A stretch of 64,000 nucleotides of DNA. Origin: Sipunculus nudus (lineage: Eukaryota; Annelida; Sipuncula; Golfingiida; Sipunculidae). Under the pieces are notes generated by a model. The model was not told the origin of the DNA and made no database searches. It saw nothing but the letters and a program-made list of their open reading frames with translations. Shown here piece after piece: positions 5,456-57,804 of this stretch; positions within the stretch are counted from its first letter, which is position 1, and the number at the start of each line of letters is the position of its first letter. The position numbers were made by a program, and so were the translations under genes. The DNA lies in the NCBI GenBank assembly GCA_026874595.1, contig CM049321.1, forward strand, positions 1,300,479 through 1,364,478, written 5' to 3'.

Positions 5456-5655
5456 TTAGTGTTGAGATTTCGGTTTAAAACACCAGGGGACACCCGGAGT
5501 TTCGCTCTTGCACCAGTAACACCCTCTGCCTAGACAAGCTTCCGAGGTGGCCCCGGGCTCTGGATGACAATCTACTCTCTCGTGGGTTGAAATGTCGGCC
5601 GGACAGAACTCCCCGCCCATTGATACAGCTGGGTCAGGAAAACACCAAGGAATTC
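5456..5655 (-). CDS. Terminal exon: closes one trefoil and encodes a complete last one
   Basis: Starts at a good acceptor (TTGTTTTCCACAG) with phase 1. It opens with IPWCF, which supplies the sixth cysteine of the preceding repeat. It then encodes a whole six-cysteine trefoil (CPADISTHERVDC, then C, GCYWC and GVPWCF) and ends KPKSQH-stop. The sequence is unlike the array units, so it did not take part in homogenisation. The C-Y-W-C spacing is the same odd one as in the array. Confidence 0.8.
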
Positions 5656-8600
5656 CTGTGGAAAACAAGGTAATAAGAATAAATCATATGGCTATATTGT
5701 AACTCATATACAACATTGATGTCAAACAATATTTAAGAAAAAAATCTGCATTCTAATGAGTGCAAGCCTCCGTCATTCATTTATTTGACCAAAATTATCA
5801 TGTTCATTCGTGCATGAATGACATTTGTGAATATTCCTTGATGACGTTCCAGGATCCGGATCATTCGGTGAATCCTAAACAAAATCTGAGCGATTCATCA
5901 TTGGCCCAATTCCGAAATGCCCTGATTATATCATGAGATTTCTTTCAAAATTCGGGTGAGTTTTTTTTGTAAACAAACACTCACGAATGGGAAGAATGCA
6001 TAACCTACTGGCAGAGGCAATTAGAGTGGAATATAATCACTGCATTCAAAATACAACAGAAGATTTGAAATGTTAGCTTTGCAATATTTAGGTATTCAAC
6101 CATGGTTTTTTCCCGATTTTTTTCAATAAATACACCAAAGATATTTATTTTAAACAAAATTTATGTTTAAACGAAGCATGATTATCATCAGTCGTCATCT
6201 TTATAGAAACACCACGGCATTTCTAAAATATTCCAAATATAATATTTTCGGTATAAAACCAGGTATATTTCCTTATGTGTCTTTCCAATAAACACACCAA
6301 AGAAAATCTTTATCCCCGTAATCAACCTTTGAAGAAAGCATGATTATGATCAGCATCAGCATGAATTTATAAATACTTAAGAAAAAGAACTACAGTAAAA
6401 AGAGTAATAACATTAAAACGGGAGGAACAATTTCCGGCGAAACTGGGTACTCATCTTGTCAAATCTCCCATTGTCTCAGTTGCATTTATTTATATCTTAC
6501 TTACAATTCTTTTAACGAATTTCAATGGATTTCATTTATCTCTCACTTGAAAAACCTGTTTAAATTCCAATGGATTTTGATAAAAGGTGTGCTTTGGACA
6601 AAGTTTCATTTTGCGGAGTTCGAGAATTCTTAAGTGACCTACCATGAGTAGACGATTCACACCAGAGGCAGCCCTTTGACAGACATTTTCTTTTATCTCC
6701 TCCCTCGGGCATACAATCCGTCCGTGCACTTTCCGGGATGTTAGACGGGCAGTCTTTTTCTTTAAAGAAGCACCACGGCACTCCTGAAATTTCCGATTTT
6801 CATTTTTTTATACCAAATCATGTATATTTCTCTTTCTGTCTTTTTCAATAAATCAACTTAAGAAAATCCTGTTATCCATCATTAATTTATATTTCAAGGA
6901 AGCAGGATTATCAACAGCAAAAGCATAAAGTTATATAAACTTTAAAAAAAGAACTACAATAAAAAGATGATAACATTTATACGGGAGGAACAATTTCTCG
7001 CAAATCTTGGTACTCATCTTCCCAAAATCCCTCTTTCTCTTAGATGCTCTTATTTTTCTCTCACTCACAAACCCTTTAATGAATTTCAATCGATTTTGAG
7101 AAAAAGGTGTGCTATGGACAAGGTTCCATTATGTGGAGTTCAAAAATTCATGTGTGACTTAGCATGAGTAGACGATTCACACCAGAGGCAGCCCTTTGAC
7201 AGACATTCTTTTTTATGTCCTCCTCCAGGCAAACAATCCGTCCGTGCACTTTCCGGGATGTTAGACGGGCAGTCTTTTTCTTTATAGAAGCACCACGGCA
7301 CTCCTGAAATTTCCGATTTTCATTTCTTTATATCCAATCATGTTTATTTCTCTTTCTGTCTTTTTCAATAAATCAACTAAAGAAAGTCCTGTTATCCGTA
7401 ATTAATATTTCAAAGAAGCAGGATTACCAACAGTATAAGCATTAAGTTGTATAAACTTAAAAAAAAAAGAACTACAGTAAAACGATTATAACATTTATAC
7501 GGGAGGAACAATTTCTCGCAAATCTTGGTACTCATCTTCCCAAAATCCCTCTTTCTCTTAGATGCTCTTATTTTTCACTCACTCACAAACCCTTTAATAA
7601 ATTTCAATCGATTTTGAGAAAAAGGTGTGCTATGGACAAGGTTCCATTATGTGGAGTTCAAAAATTCATGTGTGACTTACCATGAGTAGACGATTCACAC
7701 CAGAGGCAGCCCTTTGACAGACATTCTTTTTCATGTCCTCCTCCAGGCAAACAATCCGTCCGTGCACTTTCCGGGATGTTAGACGGGCAGTCTTTTTCTT
7801 TATAGAAGCACCACGGCACTCCTTAAATTTCCGATTTTCATTTTTTTTTATCAAATCATGTATATTTCTCTTTCTGTCTTTTTCAATAAATCAACTAAAG
7901 AAAATCCTGTTATCCGTAATTAATATTTCAAGGAAGCAGGATTATCAACAGCAAAGGCATGAAGTTATATAAACTTTAAAAAAAGGACTACAATAAAACG
8001 ATTATAACATTTATACGGGAGGAACAATTTCTCGCAAATCTTGGTACTCATCTTGCCAAAATCCCCCTTTCTCTTAGTTGCTCTTATTTATCTCTCACTC
8101 ACAAACCCTTTTTAACGAATTTCAGTCGATTTTGAGAAAAGGGTGTACTATGAACAAGGTTCCATTATGTGGAGTTCAAAAATTCATGTGTGATTTACCA
8201 TGAGTAGACGATTCACACCAGAGGCAGCCCTTTGACAGACATTCTTTTTTATGTCCTCCTCCAGGCAAACAATCCGTCCGTGCACTTTCCGGGATGTTAG
8301 ACGGGCAGTCTTTTTCTTTATAGAAGCACCACGGCACTCCTGAAATTTACGATTTTCATTTTTTTTTATCAAATCATGTATATTTCTCTTTCTGTCTTTT
8401 TCAATAAATCAACTAAAGAAAATCTTGTTATCCGTAATTAATATTTCAAGGAAGCAGGAATATCAACAGCAAAGGATGAAGTTATATAAACTTTAAAAAA
8501 ATGACTACAATAAAAAGATTATAACATTTATACGGGAGGAACAATTTCTCGCAAATCTTGGTACTCATCTTGCCAAAATCCCCCTTTCTCTTAGTTGCTC

Positions 8601-11600
8601 TTATTTATCTGTCACTCACAAACCTTTTTTAACGAATTTTAATCGATTTTGAGAAAAGGCTGTACTATGGACAAGGTTCCATTATGTTGAGTTCAAAAAT
8701 TCATGTGTGACCTACCATGAGTAGACGATTCACACCAGAGGCAGCCCTTTGACAGACATTCTTTTTTATGTCCTCCTCCAGGCAAACAATCCGTCCGTGC
8801 ACTTTCCGGGATGTTAGACGGGCAGTCTTTTTCTTTATAGAAGCACCACGGCACTCCTGAAATTTACGATTTTCATTTTTTTTTATCAAATCATGTATAT
8901 TTCTCTTTCTGTCTTTTTCAAAAAATCAACTAAAGAAAATCCTGTTATCCGTAATTAATATTTCAAGGAAGCAGGATTTTCAACAGCAAAGGCATGAAGT
9001 TATATAAACTTTAAAAAAAGGACTACAATAAAAAGATTATAACATTTATACGGGAGGAACAATTTCTCGCAAATCTTGGTACTCATCTTGCCAAAATCCC
9101 CCTTTCTCTTAGTTGCTCTTATTTATCTCTCACTCACAAACCCTTTTTAACGAATTTCAATCGATTTTGAGAAAAGGCTTTACTATGGACAAGGTTTCAT
9201 TATGTGGAGTTCAAAAATTCATGTGTGACTTACCATGAGTAGACGATTCACACCAGTGGCAGCCCTTTGACAGACATTCTTTTTTATGTCCTCCTCCAGG
9301 CAAACAATCCGTCCGTGCACTTTCCGGGATGTTAGACGGGCAGTCTTTTTCTTTATAGAAGCACCACGGCACTCCTGAAATTTACGATTTTCATTTTTTT
9401 TTATCAACTCATGTATATTTCTCTTTCTGTCTTTTTCAATAAATCAACTAAAGAAAATCCTGTTATCCGTAATTAATATTTCAAGGAAGCAGGATTATCA
9501 ACAGCAAAGGCATGAAGTTATATAAACTTTAAAAAAAGGACTACAATAAAACGATTATAACATTTATACGGGAGGAACAATTTCTCGCAAATCTTGGTAC
9601 TCATCTTGCCAAAATCCCCCTTTCTCTTAGTTGCTTTTATTTATCTCTCACTCACAAACCCTTTTTAACGATTTTCAATCGATTTTGAGAAAAAAGTGTG
9701 CTATGGACAAGGTTCCATTATGTGGAGTTCAAAAATTCATGTGTGACTTACCATGAGTAGTCGATTCACACCAGAGGCAGCCCTTTGACAGACATTCTTT
9801 TTCATGTCCTCCTCCAGGCAAACAATCCGTCCGTGCCCTTTCCGGGATTTTAGACGGGCAGTCTTTTTTTTTATAGAAGCACCACGGTACTCCTGAAATT
9901 TGCGATTTTCATTTTTTTTATATCAAATCATGTATATTTCTCTTTCTGTCTTTTTCAAAAAATCAACTAAAGAAAATCCTGTTATCCGTAATTAATATTT
10001 CAAGGAAGCAGGATTTTCAACAGCAAAGGCATGAAGTTATATAAACTTTAAAAAAAGGACTACAATAAAAAGATTATAACATTTATACGGGAGGAACAAT
10101 TTCTCGCAAATCTTGGTACTCATCTTGCCAAAATCCCCCTTTCTCTTAGTTGCTCTTATTTATCTCTCACTCACAAACCCTTTTTAACGAATTTCAATCG
10201 ATTTTGAGAAAAGGCTTTACTATGGACAAGGTTTCATTATGTGGAGTTCAAAAATTCATGTGTGACTTACCATGAGTAGACGATTCACACCAGTGGCAGC
10301 CCTTTGACAGACATTCTTTTTTATGTCCTCCTCCAGGCAAACAATCCGTCCGTGCACTTTCCGGGATGTTAGACGGGCAGTCTTTTTCTTTATAGAAGCA
10401 CCACGGCACTCCTGAAATTTACGATTTTCATTTTTTTTTATCAACTCATGTATATTTCTCTTTCTGTCTTTTTCAATAAATCAACTAAAGAAAATCCTGT
10501 TATCCGTAATTAATATTTCAAGGAAGCAGGATTATCAACAGCAAAGGCATGAAGTTATATAAACTTTAAAAAAAGGACTACAATAAAACGATTATAACAT
10601 TTATACGGGAGGAACAATTTCTCGCAAATCTTGGTACTCATCTTGCCAAAATCCCCCTTTCTCTTAGTTGCTTTTATTTATCTCTCACTCACAAACCCTT
10701 TTTAACGATTTTCAATCGATTTTGAGAAAAAAGTGTGCTATGGACAAGGTTCCATTATGTGGAGTTCAAAAATTCATGTGTGACTTACCATGAGTAGTCG
10801 ATTCACACCAGAGGCAGCCCTTTGACAGACATTCTTTTTCATGTCCTCCTCCAGGCAAACAATCCGTCCGTGCCCTTTCCGGGATTTTAGACGGGCAGTC
10901 TTTTTTTTTATAGAAGCACCACGGTACTCCTGAAATTTGCGATTTTCATTTTTTTTATATCAAATCATGTATATTTCTCTTTCTGTCTTTTTCAATAAAT
11001 CAACTAAAGAAAATCCTGTTATTCGTAGTTAATATTTCAAGGAAGCAGGATTATCAACAGCAAAGGCATGAAGTTATATAAATTTAAAAAAAAAACACTA
11101 CAATAAAAAGATTATAACATTTATACGGGAGGAACAATTTCTCGCAAATCTTGGTACTCATCTTCCCAAAATACCCCTTTCTCTTAGTTGCTCTTATTTA
11201 TCTCTCACTCACAAACCCTTTTTAACGAATTTCAATCGATTTTGAGAAAAGAGTGTACTTTGGACAAGGTTCCATTATGTGGAGTTCAAAAATTCATGTG
11301 TGACTTACCATGAGTAGACGATTCACACCAGAGGCAGCCCTTTGACAGACATTCTTTTTTATGTCCTCCTCCAGGCAAACAATCCGTCCGTGCACTTTCC
11401 GGGATGTTAGACGGGCAGTTTTTTTCTTTATAGAAGCACCACGGCACTCCTGAAATTTCCGATTTTCATTTTTTTATATCCAATCGTATATATTTATCTT
11501 TCTGTCTTTTTCAATAAATCAACTAAAGAAAGTCCTGTTATCCGTAATTAATATTTCAAAGAAGCAGGATTATCAACAGTATAAGCATTAAGTTGTATAA

Positions 11601-14550
11601 ACTTAAAAAAAAGAACTACAGTAAAACGATTATAACATTTATACGGGAGGAACAATTTCTCGCAAATCTTGGTACTCATCTTCCCAAAATCCCTCTTTCT
11701 CTTAGATGCTCTTATTTTTTACTCACTCGCAAACCCTTTAATGAATTTCAATCGATTTTGAGAAAAAGGTGTGCTATGGACAAGGTTCCATTATGTGGAG
11801 TTCAAAAATTCATGTGTGACTTACCATGAGTAGACGATTCACACCAGAGGCAGCCCTTTGACAGACATTCTTTTTCATGTCCTCCTCCAGGCAAACAATC
11901 CGTCCGTGCACTTTCCGGGATGTTAGACGGGCAGTCTTTTTCTTTATAGAAGCACCACGGCACTCCTGAAATTTACGATTTTCATTTTTTTTATCAAATC
12001 ATGTATATTTCTCTTTCTGTCTTTTTCAATAAATCAACTAAAGAAAATCCTGTTATCCGTAATTAATATTTCAAGGAAGCAGGATTATCAACAGCAAAGG
12101 CATAAAGTTATATAAACTTTAAAAAAAGGACTACAATAAAAATATTATAACATTTATACGGGAGGAACAATTTCTCGCAAATCTTGGTACTCATCTTGCC
12201 AAAATCCCCCTTTCTCTTAGTTGCTCTTATTTATCTCTCACTCACAAACCTTTTTTAACGAATTTCAATCGATTTTGAGAAAAGGCTGTACTATGGACAA
12301 GGTTCCATTATGTGGAGTTCAAAAATTCATGTGTGACTTACCATGAGTAGACGATTCACACCAGAGGCAGCCCTTTGACAGACATTCTTTTTTATGTCCT
12401 CCTCCAGACAAACAATCCGTCCGTGCACTTTCCGGGATGTTAGACGGGCAGTCTTTTTCTTTATAGAAGCACCACGGCACTCCTGAAATTTACGATTTTC
12501 ATTTTTTTTTTATCAAATCATGTATATTTCTCTTTCTGTCTTTTTCAATAAATCAACTAAAGAAAATCCTGTTATCCGTAATTAATATTTCAAGGAAGCA
12601 GGATTATCAACAGCAAAGGCATGAAGTTATATAAACTTTAAAAAAAGGACTACAATAAAAAGATTATAACATTTATACGGGAGGAACAATTTCTCGCAAA
12701 TCTTGGTACTCATCTTGCCAAAATCCCCCTTTCTCTTAGTTACTCTTATTTATCTCTCACTCACAAATCTTTTTTAACGAATTTCAATCGATTTTGAGAA
12801 AAGGCTGTACTATGGACAAGGTTCCATTATGTGGAGTTCAAAAATTCATGTGTGACTTACCATGAGTAGACGATTCACACCAGAGGCAGCCCTTTGACAG
12901 ACATTCTTTTTTATGTCCTCCTCCAGGCAAACAATCCGTCCGTGCACTTTCCGGGATGTTAGACGGGCTGTCTTTTTCTTTATAGAAGCACCACGGCACT
13001 CCTGAAATTTACGATTTTCATTTTTTTTTATCAAATCATGTATATTTCTCTTTCTGTCTTTTTCAAAAAATCAACTAAAGAAAATCCTGTTATCCGTAAT
13101 TAATATTTCAAGGAAGCAGGATTATCAACAGCAAAGGCATGAAGTTATATAAACTTTAAAAAAAGGACTACAATAAAAAGATTATAACATTTATACGGGA
13201 GGAACAATTTCTCGCAAATCTTGGTACTCATCTTGCCAAAATCCCCCTTTCTCTTAGTTGCTCTTATTTATCTCTCACTCACAAACCCTTTTTTAAAGAA
13301 TTTCAATCGATTTTGAGAAAAGGCTGTACTATGGACAAGGTTTCATTATGTGGAGTTCAAAAATTCATGTGTGACTTACCATGAGTAGACGATTCACACC
13401 AGAGGCAGCCCTTTGACAGACATTCTTTTTTATGTCCTCCTCCAGGCAAACAATCCGTCCGTGCACTTTCCGGGATGTTAGACGGGCAGTCTTTTTCTTT
13501 ATAGAAGCACCACGGCACTCCTGAAATTTCCGATTTTCATTTTTTTATATCCAATCATGTATATTTCTCTTTCTGTCTTTTTCAATAAATCAACTAAAGA
13601 AAGTCCTGTTATCCGTAATTAATATTTCAAAGAAGCAGGATTATCAACAGTATAAGCATTAAGTTGTATAAACATAAAAAAAAGAACTACAGTAAAACGA
13701 TTATAACATTTATACGGGAGGAACAATTTCTCGCAAATCTTGGTACTCATCTTCCCAAAATCCCCCTTTCTCTTAGATGCTCTTATTTATCTCTCACTCA
13801 CAAACCCTTTTGAGAAAAAGTTCTGCTATGGACAAGGTTCCATTATGTGGAGTTCAAAAATTCATGTATGACTTACCATGAGTAGACGATTCACACCAGA
13901 GGCAGCCCTTTGACAGACATTCTTTTTTATGTCCACCTTCAGGCAAACAATCCGTCCGTGCACTTTCCGGGATGTTAGACGGGCAGTCTTTTTCTTTATA
14001 GAAGCACCACGGCACTCCTGAAATTTCCGATTTTCTTTTTTTTTTATATCCAATCATGTATATTTCTCTTTCTGTCTTTTTCAATAAATCAACTAAAGAA
14101 AATCCTGTTATCCGTAATTAATATTTCACGGAAACAGGATTATCAACAGCAAAGGCATGAAGTTATATAAACTTTAAAAAAAGAATTACAATAAAAAGAA
14201 TATAACATTTATACGGAGGGGAACAATTTCTCGCAAATCTTGGTACTCATCTTGCCAAAATCCTCCTTTCTCTTAGTTGCTCTTATTTATCTCTCACTCA
14301 CAAACCCTTTTTAACGAATTTCAATCGATTTTGAGAAAAGGCTGTACTATGGACAAGGTTTCATTATGTGGAGTTCAAAACTTCATGTGTGACTTACCAT
14401 GAGTAGACGATTCACACCAGAGGCAGCCCTTTGACAGACATTCTTTTTCATGTCCTCCTCCAGGCATACAATCCGTCCGTGCATTTTCCGTTATGGTAGA
14501 CGGGCAGGGCCCGGGCTCTGGATTGATCAAATCCCCATGTGCAACCATGA
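5456..14550 (-). CDS. Multi-trefoil (P-type) domain secreted protein, exon array
   Basis: Gene model, 5' to 3' on the minus strand: 14550-14398, fifteen 141-bp exons (14017-13877 down to 6783-6643), then 5655-5456 with the stop. Nearly all borders are GT/AG; every junction is phase 1 (CAT G | GA GTG CCG). Each internal exon supplies the last cysteine of one trefoil (PWCF) and the first five of the next, so about 17 trefoils result in about 820 residues plus a signal peptide whose exon I did not find. Cysteine order is C-x11-C-x9-C-x4-C-x2-C-x9-C with the family arginine three residues before C2. The C-[LYH]-W-C spacing differs from the adjacent CC of classical trefoils. Trefoil proteins are compact, disulphide-rich secreted modules of mucus and some glycosidases; a mucus or matrix role is inference. 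The same exon frame has no stop anywhere, and in the oldest unit the exon is far better kept than its intron, suggesting constraint. Confidence 0.78.
6188..6222 (-). pseudogene. Decayed half-unit or alternative terminal exon
   Basis: A degenerate copy of the array acceptor (TATTTTAG) is followed in phase 1 by MPWCFYKDDD and TGA. The flanking bases match the array intron, but the part from mid-intron to mid-exon is deleted. If used, it would close the last array trefoil and end the protein 11 codons later. It may equally be a dead remnant. Confidence 0.45.
6643..6783 (-). CDS. Trefoil exon, unit 1 (most diverged)
   Basis: 47 codons, donor GTAGGT, acceptor TTTCAG. It differs from the others at FFKEKD and CMPEGGDKRKC, but all six cysteine positions are kept. 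Its 3' intron is strongly diverged from the rest of the array while the exon is not. Confidence 0.8.
7163..7303 (-). CDS. Trefoil exon, unit 2, with destroyed splice donor
   Basis: The coding part is intact and matches neighbours. The donor, GTAAGT in most other units, reads CTAAGT here (plus-strand 7161-7162 is AG instead of AC). The exon is probably skipped; skipping keeps frame because every exon is phase 1-1. Confidence 0.7.
7681..7821 (-). CDS. Trefoil exon, unit 3
   Basis: Open and complete. The acceptor is TTTAAG instead of TTTCAG, still AG. It carries GHEKEC where most copies have GHKKEC. Confidence 0.78.
8199..8339 (-). CDS. Trefoil exon, unit 4
   Basis: Consensus sequence: VPWCFYKEKD, the first five cysteines of the next repeat, ESSTH. 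The donor is GTAAAT, a weaker variant. Confidence 0.78.
8716..8856 (-). CDS. Trefoil exon, unit 5
   Basis: Consensus coding sequence; donor GTAGGT. Confidence 0.78.
9234..9374 (-). CDS. Trefoil exon, unit 6 (GCHWC variant)
   Basis: Leu to His between the fourth and fifth cysteines (GCHWC). Shared only with unit 8, its tandem duplicate. Confidence 0.78.
9752..9892 (-). CDS. Trefoil exon, unit 7
   Basis: Carries YKKKD, PSKIPERAR and ESTTH, a set shared only with unit 9. Confidence 0.78.
10271..10411 (-). CDS. Trefoil exon, unit 8 (GCHWC variant)
   Basis: Duplicate of unit 6, 1037 bp away, with matching flanking intron. Confidence 0.78.
10789..10929 (-). CDS. Trefoil exon, unit 9
   Basis: Duplicate of unit 7, 1037 bp away, with the same private substitutions. 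Confidence 0.78.
11309..11449 (-). CDS. Trefoil exon, unit 10
   Basis: Asp to Asn just before the first cysteine (KEKNC); otherwise consensus. Confidence 0.78.
11825..11965 (-). CDS. Trefoil exon, unit 11
   Basis: GHEKEC variant, as in units 3, 7 and 9. Donor GTAAGT. Confidence 0.78.
12342..12482 (-). CDS. Trefoil exon, unit 12
   Basis: Pro to Ser after the second cysteine (DCLSGGG); otherwise consensus. Confidence 0.78.
12861..13001 (-). CDS. Trefoil exon, unit 13, first cysteine lost
   Basis: TGC to AGC changes KDCPS to KDSPS, removing the first trefoil cysteine (partner of the fifth in the classical 1-5, 2-4, 3-6 pattern). The rest of the exon and both borders are intact. Confidence 0.75.
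13380..13520 (-). CDS. Trefoil exon, unit 14
   Basis: Consensus coding sequence, donor GTAAGT. Confidence 0.78.
13877..14017 (-). CDS. Trefoil exon, unit 15
   Basis: Carries CLPEGGHKKEC. The intron on its 3' side is about 20 bp shorter than the others owing to a small deletion near 13810. Confidence 0.78.
14398..14550 (-). CDS. 5' trefoil exon with non-array leader
   Basis: Array homology covers 14398-14507; upstream the sequence is unique but stays in frame (MVAHGDLINPEPGPCPSTIT, then ENARTDC and onward). The acceptor TTTCTTGTTGTAG is the best polypyrimidine tract in the gene. It gives a 153-bp phase 1-1 exon, the phase usual for an exon that follows a signal-peptide exon. The missing upstream exon should supply the start. 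The first cysteine here begins the first trefoil of the protein. Confidence 0.6.
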
Positions 14551-18110: not shown

Positions 18111-20320
18111 TTTTCAATTATAAAATTTATAGTTTACCTGAACAGATAACAATTAGACAGGAATTCCTGGTCGCCATGCTTTCTCTCGCTCTGTCTTCTC
18201 ACGGTAAACTCTGAGAGAATATATATATAAAATGCTTCAGAACCTTAATATATTTGAGATATTACAAGCAAGTAAAAGATTGAAAAGTATGGTCAAGCAG
18301 AAAAGCAAAACTGAAACTAAACTCTCTCATAATAATTATTCATATATTTTTTTCAGCTTGTTATCTCACTCTCTCAGTAACAGGGGTGATGTTCACATTT
18401 ATCAACCCTCACCCCCCCCCCCCCCTCCCCCAACCCAACCCAACCCCTCCCTCTTGGCAAAATATGGGGGATATATATCCAGCTCCGCCCTTTTTTGACG
18501 CCCCCGAGTTTAAGAGATAAAACATTAACATTTGAATTAAACTATTTACCAAGGAACATTTACGGTTTATTTTGCAAAACAGATTAAAATAACAAACTAG
18601 GTAAGAATAAATATTTGATAGTCCTAAGTTCATATATATATTATTCTTGGCTGGGTAAAATGCAATGAATTATTTCAGAATAACATATAATTAATATTTT
18701 AACTAAGATTTAATTAAGATTTTTAACATCATGGTCTGTTTTATTGTTTTTTTAGGTCTTTCCGGGTGTATAACTGTTCTAAATGTATTGCCATGTTTTT
18801 TTAACTTGTGAAGGGGATTGGGTATTATATAAGCAGTGTGTAGTCAGGAGGGTGCAGCAGGGGACCATGGAAACAGCAACCCTAAACGGAATATAACTAA
18901 GTTAAATGTCGTGAAAATAGGCTCTTTCCAACCTTTTCCCAATTTACATTTATGCTGTGGCAACTATGTCTCTTGTTTTAGTAATAAAAATATTAGAGAA
19001 TATTGAAGTTTATACTCTGCTGAACAGACACAAAGATTTTTTTTTTCAATTTTTATCACAACTCTCTTAAATTCTTAGAATATTTGGGGTATGTATATAA
19101 TTTTTAAACTCTGATGTGTCGATCCATAGCCGCTTGACAGAACTATATGACTATATGAACTCGGATTTTCTTACTTTGAGTGGTTTTATATGTAAAACAC
19201 ATCATAAAGTCTCCCCACAAGAGACAATGTTTAAGCATACCAATCCCACCTTTGAGACTAATCTCGTCTGTGTTCTTACACATATCTCATCGATATTGTC
19301 CTATGTTAGGGACCAAGCTGTCTACATCCATGTTTTCATGGTCAAGGATTATGATCAACCGTTGCATAAAACTATTAAATAAATATTTAATATGTAAATT
19401 AGCCTTCGTCATTACTTTAACTACCTGTTTTGCTCATATTCCTTTTGGACTTGTTCCATCTTAGATATAAAGATCACTAAACCCATATTTCATGGTCAGG
19501 GATTATGATGAACAGTTTCAAATTATCCTTTGGTGATTTTCATTTAATTTGTAATATGCAAATTAGCTGTCGCCATTTTGGGACTCCTTATTTTGCTTAT
19601 ATCGTCTTACGGAACCAGGTTATGTTAAATCATTTCAAACTACCATTTATTGGATTTAAATCTTAGAGATCAAGGTATCTTAATTTTTCTTAAGTTATAG
19701 GCTTGAATGATGTACAGTTCAAAATAAGCTTTTGGAGAGTGTTATGGGCTCATATGAAACTTAAGTAAAAATAAAACAAGTGTATTCAATATTATTTATA
19801 GAACATATATTTTAAATGAAAGTACCTTCTGTACCTTATTGTTTCCTTATTGTTACAGATACAAAACACACTGAAAGTAAATGCGCCTTTACTTATATGG
19901 CTAATCAGCTAATAAGAGTGCAATAACGTGATTTCAACGATGACCATTTATTTCACAGTCGCTGATAAGACTACGAAAGTGATAAGTCAATTTGCATGAT
20001 AACAATTAATCAAGTGAAACAGCTAATTAAAGTAGCTATCAAAAATTAATGTTATTATACATGAACTGGATTGGACATTCAATGATAAACATTGATTTTA
20101 CTTTCACTGGCACCCATTTTTATTTTAAGACTTTGATGAAATGCATTTTCTATCCATCTTCGATATGACGGAGTAGGGATCTCACAATAATCTATGGTGT
20201 AATTATATACATTAAAACTTCGGAATTATACCAAACCACTGGACCTCGATAAAGACAGCAATCCTGTAATTATATAATAGGCGATCGCTCTTTAGAGTAA
20301 TAACTAGAGAGTATTTCGTG

Positions 20321-23672: not shown

Positions 23673-24722
23673 TATTCTTGCTTGAGGCCAAACTGGACAA
23701 GATTTTATGAGACCTACATCTCTCTTGAACAGAGACCTACATCTCTGTTCAAGAAAACTCCTGCTGCTAACTATAATAGCAACAGAAACGGGTCGAACGC
23801 TTCAAACGATGCATTTAATATCTGCAGCTGCAGAAAGGGTTGGTTCTCGAGTTGGTTAAAGAATTAGTTTTATTAGTCAGATTAAATTGATAAAGATTTC
23901 TAGATGTAATAGCCTTTCGGCTTTAAGGCCGAGCCAGTCAAGTAGCAGTAGAGATCATGACGCCTAATTAGGAGTTGCTAAAGTTAATTAGTGTATATGG
24001 AAGCATTAACATCACATTTATCAGAACACGTAAGTTTAAACTATGTTTGGGTCTTCCACTCAGGTTAATCTATGTAACTTATGGATGGTGAGCTGGGATC
24101 CTTCAGTGGCAACAATGTGTGGGCAGTGCTGGCATTAGTGCTGCCATGTTCGGTATGCAGTATTGTTTATTTGCATGTATGACAAATGGAATTGCATTGA
24201 ACAAAGATTATTGCCTTCCCTGCGTTGGCGCTTATTACACAAAATCAAAAGCGTTGTGGCAATAAATGATGACAAGCCTTCTAAATTAATGTAGGTTTGT
24301 TTGTAAGAATCCTTTACTTGTTGCTAACGACTCGCACTGAATTATGGCTTATGTAGGTGTTACATCTCAAAAAGTCAGAACAAAAAGTAGGTATGCGGGT
24401 GCTATGTTGAGCCAAGTTTCATTGTCGCGGGACGGTGATTGATGAACAGCATTATAATGTTGATGAACTCTTTTTTTTCCAGCACAAACAATGGTTCCCA
24501 GCGTTGTGTGTATGCCCATTGTCTCCTACATTTCAAATGAAATGAATATGAATTTTTAGGCGGAAGGATGGACCATGGATTGCATGAATAATTTCATAGC
24601 TGTTTTGGGGAATTTGCTGTTTTTTTATGAAATGCTGATTTTGATCAATCCAACCCTGCTCAGTATGTCTGGTGAAATGCCATGGGACAAACTATCAATC
24701 GGTCTAATTAAGGCGATATCCA

Positions 24723-24917
24723 TTGGAGATACGCGTCGGTATAGATAACGACTGGAAAATGTTTGCCCATGGGTTGGCTTATGATGGTTTGGTTATTTCA
24801 TGTTCGATCCGATCGGATATTGATTCGGAATTTCAGGGCCAACTTAAAGGTAGGCACTTAGCAAGTCTACAACCAAATGAACATTCTCTAACTGACATGA
24901 TCTACAGAGGCTTGTAG
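24723..24917 (+). CDS. Candidate exon, possible death-fold domain (copy A)
   Basis: An open frame runs from a TAA at 24705 to TAG at 24915-24917. The core reads IRVGIDNDWKMFAHGLAYDG followed by about 45 residues ending SLTDMIYRGL. NDWK-hA-xL followed by about 40 residues to a leucine-rich end is the layout of UNC5-type death domains; similarity is weak and is inference. Between copies A and B, all five differences in this frame are at third codon positions and four are silent, which is direct evidence of codon structure. The exon start is not resolved. Confidence 0.4.
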   Translation: MEIRVGIDNDWKMFAHGLAYDGLVISCSIRSDIDSEFQGQLKGRHLASLQPNEHSLTDMIYRGL

Positions 24918-25146
24918 CAATTAGTGACATCTCATTATTATTCTATTTGGTAATCTGGCAGGTGTCCATACATCACTGGGCCGCCCGGTGCATGAGCAGA
25001 GACCAACGCACGTGCATACCTGTATCAATGGAGCCGAGTGGTGTCTGTGCATTATGTCATTGTTATCGATCAGGAATTCTGGACATGCAATTCTAGCTGG
25101 CCTTCTGATTTGTGCAGGTCAGTTTCTAGCCCTGAACAATCAATAT

Positions 25147-25147
25147 T

Positions 25148-25216
<69 letters not shown>

Positions 25217-25218
25217 GT
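25147..25218. repeat. (TCTA)n-(TA)n microsatellite (copy A)
   Basis: Compound repeat; the copy B equivalent at 30724-30817 is longer. Confidence 0.95.
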
Positions 25219-26273
25219 CATATTATATAATTCTTCTTGGTTTAAGGATTTTATGATTGTATTCGCTAGTATAACTAATATAACTAAACTGTCATAGTTA
25301 TATAAATATTTTAAAATTTCCGAAGAAAATACGATGCAATTATAATAGAAAATTGCGCAATATTTTAATGTATAATGTAAACCCTCTAATCTGATTACAT
25401 TTCAATTTCATTAAACCTCTCCACCGTGGTATTACATATATATAAGGTGGCATATGTACTGTTAGGTGCTCATGCCGGAGTAGAACAGTGTATATAATTT
25501 AAAGCTGGAGTGAAAAAGACTCGTACTCTTAGCATGATTGTATATATTTCAGGTAGGATGAAATCAAGTTACATGGTTTTTAGAAAAAAGCTGGGAAACG
25601 CTTCCTTATCCTTTGATAGATCATGATACTTTTTATTTGGAGGGGGGTGGTTGGGCGTTATCTATACTGTCCATTTTTCCGGCAAAAACTGCTGTTGCTG
25701 GAAAGATGTCAATGTTTGTAGAACATGATTCCATACGTTGGGGCTTCAATGATGATAATGCATATAATTTAAAGTTTGAGTGGGTAAGACACGTACTGAA
25801 AACGGACGCCTTAATTAGATATTCATGCATTCATAATCCAAAGTAAACAAAATGTTTCATGACCAAACTTTGTGATACCTTCCATTATCCCGTAAGATGA
25901 TAGTATATGATTAAATCAACCATATGCTTGATGATGTTAAATTTATACACTGTAGATGAAATATGACATAGTTGACCATTTCCCTAAGGAAATTGATAAT
26001 CGATAATGGGAATGATGGGTTGAGATGTGGGGAGGTTATGATATTATTTTAGTATTCAAATTGAAATTTAATTCCCTGTTTATACATCAGATAAAAATAT
26101 TTCACATAATACAAACTTTGAAAAGCTGCATAAAATGTTACATTATATATTTATTGTTTGCCCTGGATAAGCTCATGTTTTTTGTGAAAATAGAACTTGA
26201 AATAAGCAATCTTTGGTGAAAAGTTACACATTTATATTAAGGAAACCGGTCCATATACTTTATATTTGAACAG

Positions 26274-26395
26274 CAAGTACATGGAGCTGGACCTGTAAAT
26301 AACTTTGTAAATATATGTGCATGTCATCAGGACTACATTCAGGATAACGATTTATCAAACAGGGGAGTTCACCCTCCAAGAAGCGACCTTTATAG

Positions 26396-26445
<50 letters not shown>

Positions 26446-26549
26446 CGAAACCAATTTTAAACATAGTCCCTCGTGGTTGCCCTATTGAACATTTACGTAA
26501 CGTTGGTAAAAGTGCCTTAGACATACTGAAATCAAGGTGCCAAATGTAA
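26274..26549 (+). CDS. Candidate terminal exon with in-frame (TA)n (copy A)
   Basis: Follows TTTATATTTGAACAG. 91 codons plus TAA: QVHGAGPVNNFVNICACHQD onward, then a Tyr-Ile run coded by (TA)n at 26396-26440, then TPKPILNIVPRGCPIEHLRN and a short tail ending SRCQM. The copy B repeat differs by 6 bp, so the frame holds in both copies. Family unknown. Confidence 0.35.
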
Positions 26550-27538
26550 ACTCGAATTTTGCGTTTTACCTTAGTTTTCTCTGCCGCACGAGACACTGAA
26601 AATAGCTGGACTGGTTCCCGCATCCATTAACTGATCCGTGTACGAGAGAGCCACAAAGAATACCCGGCTGGGGCCTTCTGCTTCCTGCTAGAAAGGTTAT
26701 AGGCTTTCCAGTCCAGTATAAATACCTGCTAAGGCATGTATTCACGGCAATTGTCTTCTGAGAACATTAGGTTCTAATTAAAGGATTGGGTAAAGTTAAC
26801 AAGGCATCACATATGAAACATCACATAAATACTTTTGTATCATCAGCTACACAGGAAGCATCATGAGATTCAGTTTGGTATATCATATGCATATCACCTG
26901 TTTTTACAACTTTAGTTCAAACTGAAAATATGTAACAAGGCAACAGAAAAGTGGAAAATCATCAGCTCAACATTGCCAAGTTCAGCCGCGTTCTGTGATA
27001 AAACGCCTGCATATAATCAGCTTATCATGACCTGATGTATGATGTCAAATGTAAATATTTTGGTGAAGGTGTTCCTATAGGTTGGTCCTCCTGCGTCAAT
27101 AATATACCAATTAATACTTGACCCTTTCTCTCTGTATTGCCTCATTTATCCGCCAGGAGGATATGCTGTCATATCCGTTCGTGTGTGTTTGTGTGTATGT
27201 TAGTTCAAAACATAACTCATTTAGTCTTGAAAGGATTCTCATGAAATTTGCATGTCATTTCGGGACATGATCAAGAAATATTACAAATGTACTGTCACTT
27301 ATCCGTTAATGAACCTGGGAATATGGGTCGAATAAGGGAATGTAAACACGGTTTGGGAGCAATCCACAATAGGTACCTGGTGACCATTTAGAATTAATGT
27401 TTTCACAGACGCACGTACTCCAGCATAACGCCCATACACTTTTTCGACAATAATGCCTTGGGTGATGATAATCACCTGTCAAGTGATATGCTGGTGGTTG
27501 TAAATATACACTAAAATAAAGTAACATTTATGTGGAGG

Positions 27539-27539
<1 letters not shown>

Positions 27540-27580
<41 letters not shown>

Positions 27581-27789
27581 TAAACTAGTGATGATTCAGT
27601 TAAATTTCTAACATCTTTTGGAAAAGGTAAAAAATTTTGTTTAAGTCATGAGAGGGCCATAGAAAATCATTAAATTTTGATCTTCTGGAAGTGCGTACTC
27701 ACTAGTGATTCATACATAAATAATACTTCAAAGTTAAACTCGCAGGGTCATAGTTATGAGCTGTTATGAGCAATTACACATTGGGGCGT

Positions 27790-27855
<66 letters not shown>

Positions 27856-27916
27856 ATATATATTTTAAAGTTAACGTATGTGTTCCATCCCAAATTATGA
27901 AATTAACCATGAGCAG

Positions 27917-27965
<49 letters not shown>

Positions 27966-28009
27966 AATCTAATGGTTTACTGCAAAAAAACTACTGCTAG
28001 AGTTATGTG

Positions 28010-28057
<48 letters not shown>
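27540..28057. repeat. (CT)n and three (TA)n microsatellites (copy A)
   Basis: (CT)n 27540-27576; (TA)n 27798-27850, 27918-27961 and 28013-28057. Confidence 0.95.
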
Positions 28058-28061
<4 letters not shown>

Positions 28062-28097
28062 GAAACCATTGAATAATTAAAATATGCACTGAACCTC

Positions 28098-28670
28098 CTT
28101 TAAAATGTCGTACGACAAGTCCTACCACTCGCAACAAGTAGTAGAATGTCCTAAGCAGCCGTAAGTATTCCTAAAGCCTCACAAAAACAACCTACGATTT
28201 TTACCGTCGTTCGATCTCAGCAGGGCTACGACAGATGGAAAGAATGACAAACAGGATGACCTACGACGATGAAAAATGTTTAACATGTTAAAAATTCTAC
28301 ATAAAGGTCTAATAGGTCTATGACAGATTTTCCCTTAGCAAAATACCTGAATCTCGCATGACACACCAACAACATTCCTAGGAATTTTCCAGATTTTCTA
28401 TCGTATACCTGTCGTATTTGTGTTTTGCGATGTATGTGACTAAGACTTTACTTTAGCCTATTTGTACGACCAAACGGCAGTGGTCTTTGAGAGGTCGATG
28501 GAACTCTTTTGTTTTCATACGACTTGTTTACAAGTGGTCGTAAGTGGTCGTATGTGATCGGTAGCATCCGGAGGTTCAGACTTGTCCCTGGGTCGTGACA
28601 CAGCGGAAGCCCAAAGATCAGAGACGACCGACCCCGTACGACTAGTCGTACGACCTGTCGTGATCACATG
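28098..28670. repeat. TACGAC-dense element (copy A)
   Basis: TACGAC or its complement, and one-base variants, occur more than a dozen times in both orientations, including the palindrome GTCGTACGAC near each end (28108 and about 28645). Probably a mobile repeat with complex ends. Copy B is at 33796-34325 with a ~23-bp deletion. Confidence 0.55.
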
Positions 28671-29255: not shown

Positions 29256-30297
29256 GTGCATATTCTTGCTTGAGGCCAAACTGGACAAGATTTTATGAGA
29301 CCTACATCTCTGTTCAAGAAAACCACCTGCTGCTAACTATAATAGAAACAAAAACGTGTCGAACGCTTCAAACGATGCATTTAATATCTGCAGCTGCAGA
29401 AAGGGTTGGTTCTCCTGTTGGTTAAGGAATTATTTTTTTTACTCAGATTAAATTGATAAAGATTTCTAGATGTAATAGCCTTTCGGCTTTAAGGCCGAGC
29501 CAGTCAAGTAGCAGTAGAGATCATGACGCCTAATTAGGAGTTGCTAAAGTTAATTAGTGTATATGGAAGCATTAACATCACATTTATCAGAACACGTAAG
29601 TTTAAACTATGTTTGGGTCTTCCACTCAGGTTAATCTATGTAACTTATGGCACGGTGAGCTGGGATCCTTCAGTGGCAACAATATGTGGGCAGTGCTGGC
29701 ATTAGTGCTGCCATGTTCGGTATGCAGTATTGTTTATTTGCATGTATGACAAAAGGAATTGCATTGCAAAAAGATTATTGCCTTCCCTGCGTTGGCGCTT
29801 ATTACACAAAATCAAAAGCTTTGTGACAATAAATGATGACAAGCCTTCTAAATCAATGTGGATTTGTTTGTAAGAATAATTTATTTGTTGCTAACGACTC
29901 GCACTGAATTATGGCTTATGTAGGTGTTTCATTTCAAAAAGTCAGAACAAGAACTATGTATGCGGGTGCTATGTTGAGCCAAGTTTCATTGTCGAGGGAC
30001 GGTGGTTGATTGGTTGATGCACACCATTATGATGTTGATGTACTCTCTTTTTCCCAGCACAAACAATGGTGCCCAGCGTTGTGTGTATGCCCCTTGTCTC
30101 AAACATTTCAAATGAAATGAATCTGAAATTGCTGGTGAAAGGATTGACCATGAATTGCATGAATAATTTCGTAGCTGTTTTTGGAATGTTTGATGAAATG
30201 CTGATTTTGATCAATCCAACCCTGCACACTATGTCCTGTGAAATGCCATTTATTACATGGGACAAACTATCAATCGGTCTAATTAAGGCGATATCCA

Positions 30298-30492
30298 TTG
30301 GAGATACGCGTCGGTATAGATAACGACTGGAAAATGTTCGCTCATGGGTTGGCTTATGATGGTTTGGTTATTTCATGTTCGATTCGATCGGATATTGATT
30401 CAGAATTTCAGGGCCATCTTAAAGGTAGGCACTTAGCAAGTCTACAACCAAATGAACATTCTCTAACTGACATGATCTACAGAGGCTTGTAG
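30298..30492 (+). CDS. Candidate exon, possible death-fold domain (copy B)
   Basis: Same frame as 24723-24917. TTT-GCC is TTC-GCT here, ATC is ATT, TCG is TCA, and CAA is CAT (Gln to His, the only replacement). Upstream in copy B a longer frame (30066-30323) is open where copy A has a stop, but it is not conserved between copies. Confidence 0.4.
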   Translation: MEIRVGIDNDWKMFAHGLAYDGLVISCSIRSDIDSEFQGHLKGRHLASLQPNEHSLTDMIYRGL

Positions 30493-30722
30493 CAATTAGT
30501 GACATCTCATTATTATTCTATTTGGTAATCTGGCAGGTGTCCATACATCACTGGGCCGCCCGGTGCATGAGCAGAGACCAACGCACGTGCATACCTGTAT
30601 CAATGGAGCCGAGTGGTGTCTGTGCATTATGTCATTGTTAACGATCAGGAATTCTGGACATGCAATTCTAGCTGGCCTTCTGATTTGTGCAGGTCAGTTT
30701 CTAGCCCTGAACAATCAATATT

Positions 30723-30723
<1 letters not shown>

Positions 30724-30817
<94 letters not shown>
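30724..30817. repeat. (TCTA)n-(TA)n microsatellite (copy B)
   Basis: Expanded version of 25147-25218. Confidence 0.95.
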
Positions 30818-30820
<3 letters not shown>

Positions 30821-31876
30821 ATATTATATAATTCTTCTTGGTTTACGGATTTTATGATTGTATTCGCTAGTATAACTAATATAACTAAACTGTCATAGTT
30901 ATATAAATATTTTAAAATTTCCGAAGAAAATACGATGCAATTATAATAGAAAATTGCGCAATATTTTAATGTATAATGAAAACCCTCTAATCTGATTACA
31001 TTTCAATTTCATTAAACCTCTCCACCGTGGTATTACATATATATAAGGTGGCATATGTACTGTTAGGTGCTCATGCCGGAGTAGAACAGTGTATATAATT
31101 TAAAGCTGGAGTGAAAAAGACTCGTACTCTTAGCATGGTTGTATATATTTCAGGTAGGATGAAATCAAGTTACATGGTTTTTAGAAAAAAGCTGGGAAAC
31201 GCTTCCTTATCCTTTGATAGATCATGATACTTTTTATTTGGAGGGGGTGGTTGGGCGTTATCTATACATATCCATTTTTCCGGCAAAAACTGCTGTTGCT
31301 GGAAAGATGTCAATGTTTGTAGAACATGATTCCAGACTTTGGGGCTTCAATGATGATAATGCATATAATTTAAAGTTTGAGTGGGTAAGACACGTACTGA
31401 AAACGGACGCCTTAATTAGATATTCATGCATTCATAATCCAAAGTAAACAAAATGTTTCATGACCAAACTTTGTGATACCTTCCATTATCCCGTAAGATG
31501 ATAGTATATGATTAAATCAACCATATGCTTGATGATGTTAAATTTATACACTGTAGATGAAATATGACATAGTTGACCATTTCCCTAAGGAAATTGATAA
31601 TCGATAATGGGAATGATGGGTTGAGATGTGGGGAGGTTATGATATTATTTTAGTATTCAAATTGAAATTTAATTACCTGTTTATACATCAGATAAAAATA
31701 TTTCACATAATACAAACTTTGAAAAGCTGCATAAAATGTTACATTATATATTTATTGTTTGCCCTGGATAAGCTCATGTTTTTTTTGAAAATAGAACTTG
31801 AAATAAGCAATCTTTGGTGAAAAGTTACACATTTATATTAAGGAAAAACCGGTCCATATACTTTATATTTGAACAG

Positions 31877-31998
31877 CAAGTACATGGAGCTGGACCTGTA
31901 AATAACTTTGTAAATATATGTGCATGTCATCAGGACTACATTCAGGATAACGATTTATCAAACAGGGGAGTTCACCCTCCAAGAAGCGACCTTTATAG

Positions 31999-32054
<56 letters not shown>

Positions 32055-32158
32055 CGAAACCAATTTTAAACATAGTCCCTCGTGGTTGCCCTATTGAACA
32101 TTTACGTAACGTTGGTAAAAGTGCCTTAGACATACTGAAATCAAGGTGCCAAATGTAA
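31877..32158 (+). CDS. Candidate terminal exon with in-frame (TA)n (copy B)
   Basis: Partner of 26274-26549. Flanks of the Tyr-Ile run are identical to copy A. 93 codons plus stop, two more than copy A. Confidence 0.35.
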
Positions 32159-33148
32159 ACTCGAATTTTGCGTTTTACCTTAGTTTTCTCTGCCGCACGA
32201 GACACTGAAAACAGCTGGACTGGTTCCCGCATCCATTAACTGATCCGTGTACGAGAGAGCCACAAAGAATACCCGGCTGGGGCCTTCTGCTTCCTGCTAG
32301 AAAGGTTATAGGCTTTCCAGTCCAGTATAAATACCTGCTAAGGCATGTATTCTCGGCAATTGTCTTCTGAGAACATTAGGTTCTAATTAAAGGATTGGGT
32401 AAAGTTAACAAGGCATCACATATGAAACATCACATAAATACTTTTGTATCATCAGCTACACAGGAAGCATCATGAGATTCAGTTTGGTATATCATATGCA
32501 TATCACCTGTTTTTACAACTCTTATTCAAACTGAAAATATGTAACAAGGCAACAGAAAAGTGGAAAATCATCAGCTCAACATTGCCAAGTTCAGCCGCGT
32601 TCTGTGATAAAACGCCTGCATATAATCAGCTTATAATGACCTGATGTATGATGTCAAATGTATATATTTTGGTGAGGGTGTTCCTATAGGTTGGTCCTCC
32701 TGCGTCAATAATATACCAATTAATACTTGACCCTTTCTCTCTGTATTGCCTCATTGATTCCGCCAGGAGTTTATGCTGTCATACCCGTTCGTGTGTGTTT
32801 GTGTGTATGTTAGTTCAAAACATAACTCATTTAGTCTTGAAAGGATTCTCATGAAATTTGCATGTCATTTCGGGACATGATCAAGAAATATTACAAATGT
32901 ACTGTCACTTATCCGTTAATGAACCTGGGAATATGGGTCGAATAAGGGAATGTAAACACGGTTTGGGAGCAATCCACAATAGGTACCTGGTGACCATTTA
33001 GAATTAATGTTTTCACAGACGCACGTACTCCAGCATAACGCCCATACACTTTTTCGACAATAATGCCTTGGGTGATGATAATCACCTGTCAAGTGATATG
33101 CTGGTGGTTGTAAATATACACTAAAATAAAGTAACATTTATGTGGAGG

Positions 33149-33149
<1 letters not shown>

Positions 33150-33194
<45 letters not shown>

Positions 33195-33507
33195 TAAACT
33201 AGTGTTGATTCAGTTAAATTTCTAACATCTTTTGGAAAAGGTAAAAAATTTTGTTTAAGTCATGAGAGGGCCATAGAAAATCATTAAATTTTGATCTTCT
33301 GGAAGTGCGTACTCACTAGTGATTCATACATAAATAATACTTCAAAGTTAAACTCGCAGGGTCATAGTTATGAGCTGTTATGAGCAATTACACATTGGGG
33401 CGTAACATATATATATATATATATATTCTAACCACATTCACCTGATGATCGGGTCGCATCCCGTGAAACAGTCTGTTGTGAATTAACAGTGTTGTTTTTC
33501 TTCAGAG

Positions 33508-33550
<43 letters not shown>

Positions 33551-33611
33551 ATATATATTTTAAAGTTAACGTATGTGTTCCATCCCAAATTATGAAATTA
33601 ACCATGAGCAG

Positions 33612-33662
<51 letters not shown>

Positions 33663-33706
33663 AATCTAATGGTTTACTGCAAAAAAACTACTGCTAGAGT
33701 TATGTG

Positions 33707-33748
<42 letters not shown>
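33150..33748. repeat. (CT)n and (TA)n microsatellites (copy B)
   Basis: (CT)n 33150-33190; (TA)n 33405-33426, 33508-33544, 33614-33657 and 33714-33748. Confidence 0.95.
33427..33507. mobile_element. 81-bp insertion inside a copy B (TA)n
   Basis: Absent from copy A. It contains CACCTGATGATCGGGTCGCA followed by TCCCGTGAAACAGTCTGTTG. Stem-like CTGATGA...GAAAC sequences of this kind, set in microsatellites, are common at ends of retroelement tails; assignment is inference. Confidence 0.5.
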
Positions 33749-33752
<4 letters not shown>

Positions 33753-34616
33753 GAAACCATTGAATAATTAAAATATGCACTGAACCTCCTTTAAAATGTC
33801 GTACGACAAGTCCTACCACTCGCAACAAGTAGTAGAATGTCCTAAGCAGCCGTAAGTATTCCTAAAGCCTCACAAAAACAACCTACGATTTTTACCGTCG
33901 TTCGATCTCAGCAGGGCTACGACAGATGGAAAGATTGACAAACAGGATGACCTACGACGATGAAAAATGTTTAACATGTTAAAAATTCTACATAAAGGTC
34001 TAATAGGTCTATGATTTTCCCTTAGCAAAATACCTGAATCTCGCATGACACACCAACAACATTCCTAGGAATTTTCCCAATTTTCTATCGTATACCCGTC
34101 GTATATGTGTTTTGCGATGTATGTGACTAAGACTTTACGGCAGTGGTCTTTGAGAAGACGGTGCTTTTGTGGTCATACGACTTGTTTACAAGTGGATGTA
34201 CGTGGTCTTATGTGATTGGTAGCATAAGGAGGTACAGACTTGTCCCTTGGTCGTGACACAGCGAAAGCCCAAAGATCAGAGACCACAGACCCCACACGAC
34301 GAGTCGTACGACCTGTCGTGATCACATAGAGAAATTTCATACACAGGGCTAGGCAAATTTCATTTGTATGATCCTTTGGAAACAAATACATGGTGAACTG
34401 AAATTTCACATGCACGGTTGCGTGCCCTCCCCCCCCCCCCCCCCCCCTCAAAAAAAGTAAAAGAAATTTGAAAAAAAAAAACTTAAATAGAGCATTGTGT
34501 AATATTTTGCTCGATGTGCAATTATATGTATTATGGAAGACTGTTGTTGTCATCTCTATGTCACATGGGTTGTATGCTGATACATCTGTCAACAAATACT
34601 TGTGTCTGTGCTAAAG

Positions 34617-36560: not shown

Positions 36561-36897
36561 TGTCGGTGAAAGCACAGACTGCTGGTCTTTCTAAGGAACC
36601 CTTTTATTAAATTGTTCCGTGTAAGGATGTCTCTTGGTCTTCCAGGTTTTTTTTTTTTTTTTTTTTTTTTTTGCTAGGATGTTCTGAAAGAGTTATGATG
36701 TTATTCCTTACTAAACCTGACCAGCATGAGCTATTGATCACGGAATCAGGGTTCAAGAGTTGCATTTACAAACGCACACACATGCAATAACGTCTCCTCT
36801 CACATTTCATGCGAATTTTTTGTGGCATGTTTCTGGATATTGGTTCTATAAATTACCAACATATTGAGCCCCGGATCTGATATGAACTTAATTTATT
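36561..36897. other. Flank with poly-T tract
   Basis: T-run at about 36647-36672; nothing else recognised. Confidence 0.6.

Positions 36898-57729: not shown

Positions 57730-57804
<75 letters not shown>

Follow-up and report, generated by a model that had tools for sequence, protein, structure and literature searches.

A stretch of 64,000 nucleotides of Sipunculus nudus DNA (NCBI GenBank assembly GCA_026874595.1, contig CM049321.1, positions 1,300,479 to 1,364,478 of the forward strand; hereafter the window, to which all coordinates refer unless otherwise stated) carries on its minus strand a tandem array of exons, each coding for parts of two trefoil domains. We show herein that the array has close relatives among genes for maltase-glucoamylase-like alpha-glucosidases of family GH31, and propose that it probably belongs to a gene for a secreted multi-trefoil protein, which would have been derived from such an enzyme gene by amplification of one trefoil exon. 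A preliminary description of the window had proposed a secreted protein of 17 trefoils encoded by a live array of tandem exons.

A sliding scan with the 141-bp exon (threshold, at least 90 of 141 positions identical) gave 16 matches, all of them on the minus strand. Fifteen are full array exons (133-141 of 141 identical), and the remaining one is the first exon (110/141). The array exons span 14017-6643, between the first exon (14550-14398) and the last exon (5655-5456), and their starts are spaced 497-520 bp apart; the array is absent from the listing of Tandem Repeats Finder (TRF), in which the longest period was 500. All 15 translate in a single frame to GVPWCFYKEKDCPSNIPESARTDCLPGGGHKKECLSKGCLWCESSTH or near. 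Every array exon is of phase 1-1; it encodes the Cys6 that ends one trefoil and Cys1-Cys5 of the next. The introns accordingly fall between Cys5 and Cys6 of trefoils 1-16, and trefoil 17 alone lies whole within one exon. AG acceptors precede all 15 array exons (CAG in 14, AAG in unit 14), and GT donors follow 14 of the 15, unit 15 having CTAAGT. The homogeneous array of 141-bp phase 1-1 exons, each splitting two trefoils, was thus confirmed by the scan and the frame, and the two ends originally given for it coincide exactly with the end of the stop codon (5456) and the acceptor of the first exon (14550). The exons are listed in Table 1.

Table 1. Exons and related features of the multi-trefoil gene, in order of predicted transcription
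Feature	Coordinates	Strand	Remarks and basis
Likely signal-peptide exon	18138..18177	-	MATRNSCLIVICS; ends in phase 1, CAG/GTAAAC; candidate scan and homology to C12; splicing predicted
Exon 1	14398..14550	-	Signal-peptide end VMVAHG, DLINPEPGP, Cys1-Cys5 of trefoil 1; acceptor TTGTTGTAG, donor GTAAGT
Array exon u2	13877..14017	-	141 bp, phase 1-1; exon scan
Array exon u3 (consensus)	13380..13520	-	Exon scan
Array exon u4	12861..13001	-	Cys1 replaced by Ser; exon scan, translation
Array exon u5	12342..12482	-	Exon scan
Array exon u6	11825..11965	-	Exon scan
Array exon u7	11309..11449	-	Exon scan
Array exon u8	10789..10929	-	Opens first copy of recent two-unit block (10929-9893)
Array exon u9	10271..10411	-	Exon scan
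Array exon u10	9752..9892	-	Opens second copy of two-unit block (9892-8857)
Array exon u11	9234..9374	-	Exon scan
Array exon u12	8716..8856	-	Exon scan
Array exon u13	8199..8339	-	Exon scan
Array exon u14	7681..7821	-	Acceptor AAG in place of CAG; exon scan
Array exon u15	7163..7303	-	Donor CTAAGT in place of GTAAGT; in-frame skipping probable
Array exon u16	6643..6783	-	Most divergent; MPEGGDK shared with C12 relatives
Stub of further unit	6188..6222	-	Array-type exon start, halted by an in-frame stop; unit-like intron sequence beyond
Last exon	5456..5655	-	Cys6 of trefoil 16, complete trefoil 17, stop TAA 5458-5456

A model joining 18 exons from 18177 to 5456 contains a single open frame with one terminal stop, and predicts a protein of 835 amino acids that ends in KPKSQH. 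The predicted mature chain has 816 residues, 101 of them cysteine, and no N-glycosylation motif; the links between array domains are six residues long. The whole chain comprises the signal exon, 17 trefoils and a six-residue tail, with no other domain. When the joined peptide was compared by hmmscan with PF00088 (query of 821 amino acids, starting at the methionine of exon 1), 17 stretches matched, with an expectation value (E) of 2.1e-179 and a score of 581.7 bits, against a whole-protein cut-off of 21; this was one of the checks that the preliminary description had named. Sixteen of the 17 repeats hold all six cysteines of PF00088, and repeat 4 has five, so that 101 of the 102 trefoil cysteines are kept. 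RxDC, PWC and the cysteine spacing GC[L/H/Y]WC were each found in 17/17 repeats. Pfam matches to FDC-SP, an apicomplexan microprotein and the Lin-28 zinc-knuckle were rejected, as none of their stretches passed singly. The coding capacity for 17 trefoils claimed at the outset therefore stands, while the count itself is probably one too high for this haplotype: since the donor of unit 15 is CT, 16 domains are likelier than 17. In the model, skipping of unit 15 would leave 788 amino acids in an intact frame, whereas reading through its intron would bring a stop after seven more residues.

No usable start lies within the first exon itself. Upstream of it, 86 bp (18214-18129) match a site on C12 (the window lies on C16) with 80% identity. 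This site precedes a GH31 relative, the L013 gene; it reads MAARKSCLIVICS, and its donor is at the identical base. The exon at 18177-18138 is therefore likely to encode the signal peptide and would be spliced to exon 1, where four C12 relatives have, by eye, candidate phase-1 acceptors at the corresponding place. It lies outside the coordinates that the preliminary description had given, and supports the proposal made there that the protein is secreted. Two other starts were considered. Initiation at the in-frame ATG of exon 1 (MVAHGD...) was rejected, as it would provide no signal peptide and the C12 relatives have a candidate phase-1 acceptor there. A lost start, at which the ATG of L013 (MVASIFLV...) corresponds to ATA here, was made unnecessary by the homologous upstream exon.

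The kinship of the gene was sought in the whole genome (1.43 Gb, 153 contigs). PF00088 marked 26 places, including only the last exon of this gene; its array exons were missed because their domains are split between exons. In searches with the array unit, which score the best candidates only, the unit as DNA gave 21 listed matches, 19 at this locus and two on C12 (85-86%), and the unit as protein gave 28, of which 17 belong to this gene, ten to C12 and one to C4 (E 2.3e-4). On C12, the protein matches to trefoil-2 exons were at 73-75% and the other eight at 44-52%. No second array site appeared among the best candidates scored in these DNA and protein searches. The last exon resembles two C12 exons at 85% and 83% in DNA, up to 5463, and at 80 and 77% in protein. 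The two closest relatives on C12 have an intron in trefoil 2 that separates Cys5 from Cys6 at the same codon as in the array; thus the domain-splitting intron is not new here, and is common to the enzyme genes. The GC[L/H/Y]WC pattern is likewise common to the C12 genes, whereas a trefoil gene on C2 (L007) has GCCW instead.

One C12 gene runs past its last trefoil into GYRMVGDPVSTAKGWRVTLDR..., and a PDB search with this sequence matched maltase-glucoamylase (E 2.2e-26) as well as sucrase-isomaltase (E 2.2e-12), with alignments that cover the trefoil and beyond. GH31-like exons were also seen by eye farther downstream. Pfam gave Trefoil only on three C12 fragments, so that these genes are labelled GH31 on the strength of the PDB match and the exons downstream. 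In the window gene, homology to the GH31 relatives stops at 5463, four bases ahead of the stop codon. None of 13 GH31 exon peptides matched the window, the 20 kb downstream or the 10 kb upstream of it (E 0.01), whereas each of the 13 had 2-4 matches on C12, from which they were taken. The catalytic domain is thus missing from the searched span, with a stop right after the last trefoil, and the homology of the array exon and the last exon is to the N-terminal trefoils of the enzymes. Judged from these comparisons, the gene is kin to GH31 alpha-glucosidases without their enzyme part, a point that the preliminary description had missed.

Some further trefoil genes were noted during these searches. 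Four maltase-glucoamylase-like genes with, by eye, three N-terminal trefoils each (L009, L012, L013 and L015) lie at 17.885-17.965 Mb of C12; all have the GC-x-W-C spacing, and two pairs of them differ in intron positions. On C4, the open frames L017 and L018 each hold a single trefoil, preceded by what looks by eye like a transmembrane stretch. They have no Cys after the GC of Cys4, and are perhaps membrane-anchored relatives. Part of the last intron of the window gene (5742-5980) matches C12 near 17905352 with 70% identity, perhaps as a dispersed repeat.

The units of the array probably differ in age. Units 8-9 (10929-9893, 1037 bp) and units 10-11 (9892-8857, 1036 bp) differ by one mismatch and one gap; because the two blocks are near-identical, the two-unit duplication is recent, and copy number may vary. 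It is on this near-identity that the description of the array as live rests. Such blocks can also be duplicated or collapsed by an assembler, and a base error might explain the broken donor of unit 15, so the true array might be shorter or longer than the assembled one. We consider an artefact of this kind very improbable: outside the u8/u10 and u9/u11 pairs, the introns of u1-u15 are 0.8-9.6% apart, so that many distinct units are real, whatever their count. Unit 16 stands apart from the others. Its introns differ from those of u2-u15 by 21.5-24.1% and its exon at 8-14 of 141 sites (22.1% and 8/141 in the comparison with u3). It is probably the oldest unit, because its introns are so far from those of u2-u15 and because its MPEGGDK is common to the C12 relatives.

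Among u2-u15, 12 of 141 exon sites are variable, as against 68 of 377 intron sites (P 0.006), and indels are absent from the exons and form nine patterns in the introns (P 0.08). For the last exon, synonymous divergence (dS) from the C12 relatives is 0.53 and 0.55, and nonsynonymous divergence (dN) 0.09 and 0.11; between the two relatives the corresponding values are 0.65 and 0.10.

A study of trefoil factors identified an Asp and a Trp as the sugar contacts of TFF3, with GlcNAc (N-acetylglucosamine)-alpha-1,4-Gal (galactose) as ligand (PMC7221086). According to that source, mucin binding becomes barely detectable when Asp20 is replaced and is abolished when the Trp of TFF1 or TFF3 is replaced, whereas replacing the Asn of TFF1 at the position corresponding to Asp20 merely lowers it. 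The same source argues that maltose or isomaltose is the ligand of the trefoils in amylose-processing enzymes, whereas TFF trefoils bind GlcNAc-alpha-1,4-Gal (PMC7221086). Both the Asp and the Trp were found in 17/17 repeats of the window gene. The best reading of the predicted chain is that of a polyvalent lectin for an alpha-linked disaccharide, acting by avidity.

Several observations weigh against a gene for a working lectin, and they concern both the ligand and the gene itself. As to the ligand, lectin activity is read from two residues per repeat, and the GCxWC spacing of Cys4 and Cys5, which are not adjacent, may alter the sugar site. An AlphaFold model of the last exon with five relatives had a mean predicted local distance difference test (pLDDT) score of 61.7, too poor for use, and a fold search of this last-trefoil model against the PDB gave four matches, none significant, the best being sucrase-isomaltase at E 6.5. 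The chain could instead be a cysteine-rich structural or matrix protein, a string of disulphide-locked beads that provides toughness or protease resistance; such a protein would differ from the proposed lectin in its ligand alone. The abundance of cysteine and the short links would suit it, as would the small number of residues that point to sugar binding. We nonetheless regard it as doubtful, since both contact residues are present in every repeat, whereas by our own count several C12 trefoils read PYC or PFC and have another residue in place of the Trp.

As to the gene, the donor of unit 15 is broken, the acceptor of unit 14 is AAG and unit 4 is without Cys1. Pyrimidines make up 30-40% of the last 20 acceptor bases in the array, compared with 70% at the last exon. 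A truncated extra unit is present at 6222-6188, and reads E M P W C F Y K D D D in the exon frame before its stop. The exon changes among u2-u15 are 10 nonsynonymous to 2 synonymous, as under neutrality (P 0.74); stops number 0 where 2.5 were expected (P 0.08), and neither this nor the lack of exon indels is significant alone. Moreover, synonymous sites are depleted like the others in these exons (2 seen, 7.9 expected), and exon conversion could thus account for part of the low exon variation. The array consensus and the C12 trefoil-2 exons gave dN/dS of 0.32 and 0.40, whereas the value between those exons was 0.13. For the last exon, the branch leading to the window gene has 7 nonsynonymous and 6 synonymous changes, not clearly below neutral (P 0.065), whereas the enzyme branches gave P 0.004 and 0.005.

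These defects, the acceptors poor in pyrimidines, the neutral-looking ratio among the array exons, the raised dN/dS towards the C12 relatives and the lack of significant constraint on the window branch would fit a decaying partial duplicate. This would be a copy of the 5' part of an alpha-glucosidase gene that expanded in tandem and has since ceased to be under useful selection; it would perhaps be transcribed, but would make no protein that matters. This possibility deserves to be taken seriously, but appears rather unlikely. The 18-exon model is free of stops and frameshifts, although roughly 0.5 synonymous changes per site separate its last exon from the relatives; variation is lower in exons than in introns, with u16 as the clearest example; and the gene has retained its signal exon, the positions of its splice sites, the Asp and the Trp of all 17 repeats, and all but one of the 102 trefoil cysteines. 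The intact frames of the array copies themselves weigh little, because the copies are young and not independent. Selection on the array is weak or unproven.

Among known proteins, maltase-glucoamylase and sucrase-isomaltase come closest. Their C12 relatives share the signal exon (in the L013 gene), the trefoil exons and the intron position with the window gene, in which, by contrast, no GH31 part was found nearby and one trefoil exon is present 15 times. The trefoil factors TFF1-3 are similar in having stand-alone trefoils and a signal peptide (here predicted) and nothing else, and in the sugar-contact Asp (or Asn) and Trp. They differ in having one or two domains in mammals (PMC7350206), compared with the 16-17 predicted here, and the nearest kin of the window gene are enzymes. 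That source gives one domain for TFF1 and TFF3 and two for TFF2, and is at odds with PMC7177656, which says three for TFF3. It also describes the TFF domain as generally contained in a single class 1-1 exon (PMC7350206), whereas the domain here is split by an intron; similarly, Cys4 and Cys5 are adjacent (GCC) in the TFF2 consensus (PMC3146476) and separated in all 17 repeats here. Longer chains are reported from frogs, in which FIM-C.1 is a polymorphic protein with five or more TFF domains (PMC7177656), and stomach peptides have four or more trefoils (PMC3146476). The FIMs, which are thought to be lectins that build a mucus network, likewise combine several trefoils in one secreted protein (here a predicted one), but they contain O-glycosylated mucin stretches, whereas the predicted domains of the window gene stand back to back. 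No invertebrate protein with many P-type trefoils was found by titles and the beginnings of abstracts in the open-licence literature, a search whose scope did not extend to annotated protein databases; predicted multi-trefoil proteins may well be present in animal annotation databases.

Elsewhere in the window, a tandem segmental duplication (24087-28669 and 29654-34327) has an offset of about 5.6 kb, with matching pieces 87-100% identical. A minisatellite of 59/68-bp units occupies 34692-36562, where TRF gives 28.1 copies of 68 bp at 34746-36562. Two long open frames on the plus strand (57352-57819 and 58802-59893) resemble, by eye only, a membrane transporter of the major-facilitator type.

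The origin of the multi-trefoil gene from a GH31 gene can be pictured as follows. The gene copy on C16 would have lost, or never received, everything past the last N-terminal trefoil, the direction presumably being from enzyme to trefoil-only gene, and one trefoil exon would then have been amplified, most simply via unequal crossing-over. If transcribed and spliced as predicted, the gene would encode a chain of 16-17 trefoils, with probable skipping of unit 15. Each trefoil would be a weak lectin for an alpha-linked disaccharide, and the chain would cross-link mucus glycans or alpha-glucans through avidity. Since all array exons are symmetric, the valency would shift by one, with the frame intact, whenever a unit is gained, lost or skipped, and valency would thus be the trait free to vary. 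What can be read from the DNA itself is the exon structure, the kinship to C12, the absence of the enzyme part nearby, the array and its recent two-unit duplication.

We tentatively suggest that a new polyvalent lectin without an enzyme part may here have evolved from a digestive alpha-glucosidase gene, independently of vertebrate trefoil factors and frog mucins; the number of its near-identical exons would set its valency and would be changing now via unequal crossing-over, probably with differences between individuals. The descent from enzyme to lectin, if correct, is the more interesting part of the finding. If expressed, the gene would clearly exemplify how the binding module of an enzyme can turn into a free-standing binder, with enzyme relatives in the same genome for comparison, and would make it testable whether adding domains gives trefoil lectins function. 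The ligand of the chain would tell whether specificity followed descent or use. Moreover, if copy number varies, the array of symmetric exons would constitute a natural allelic series of valency.

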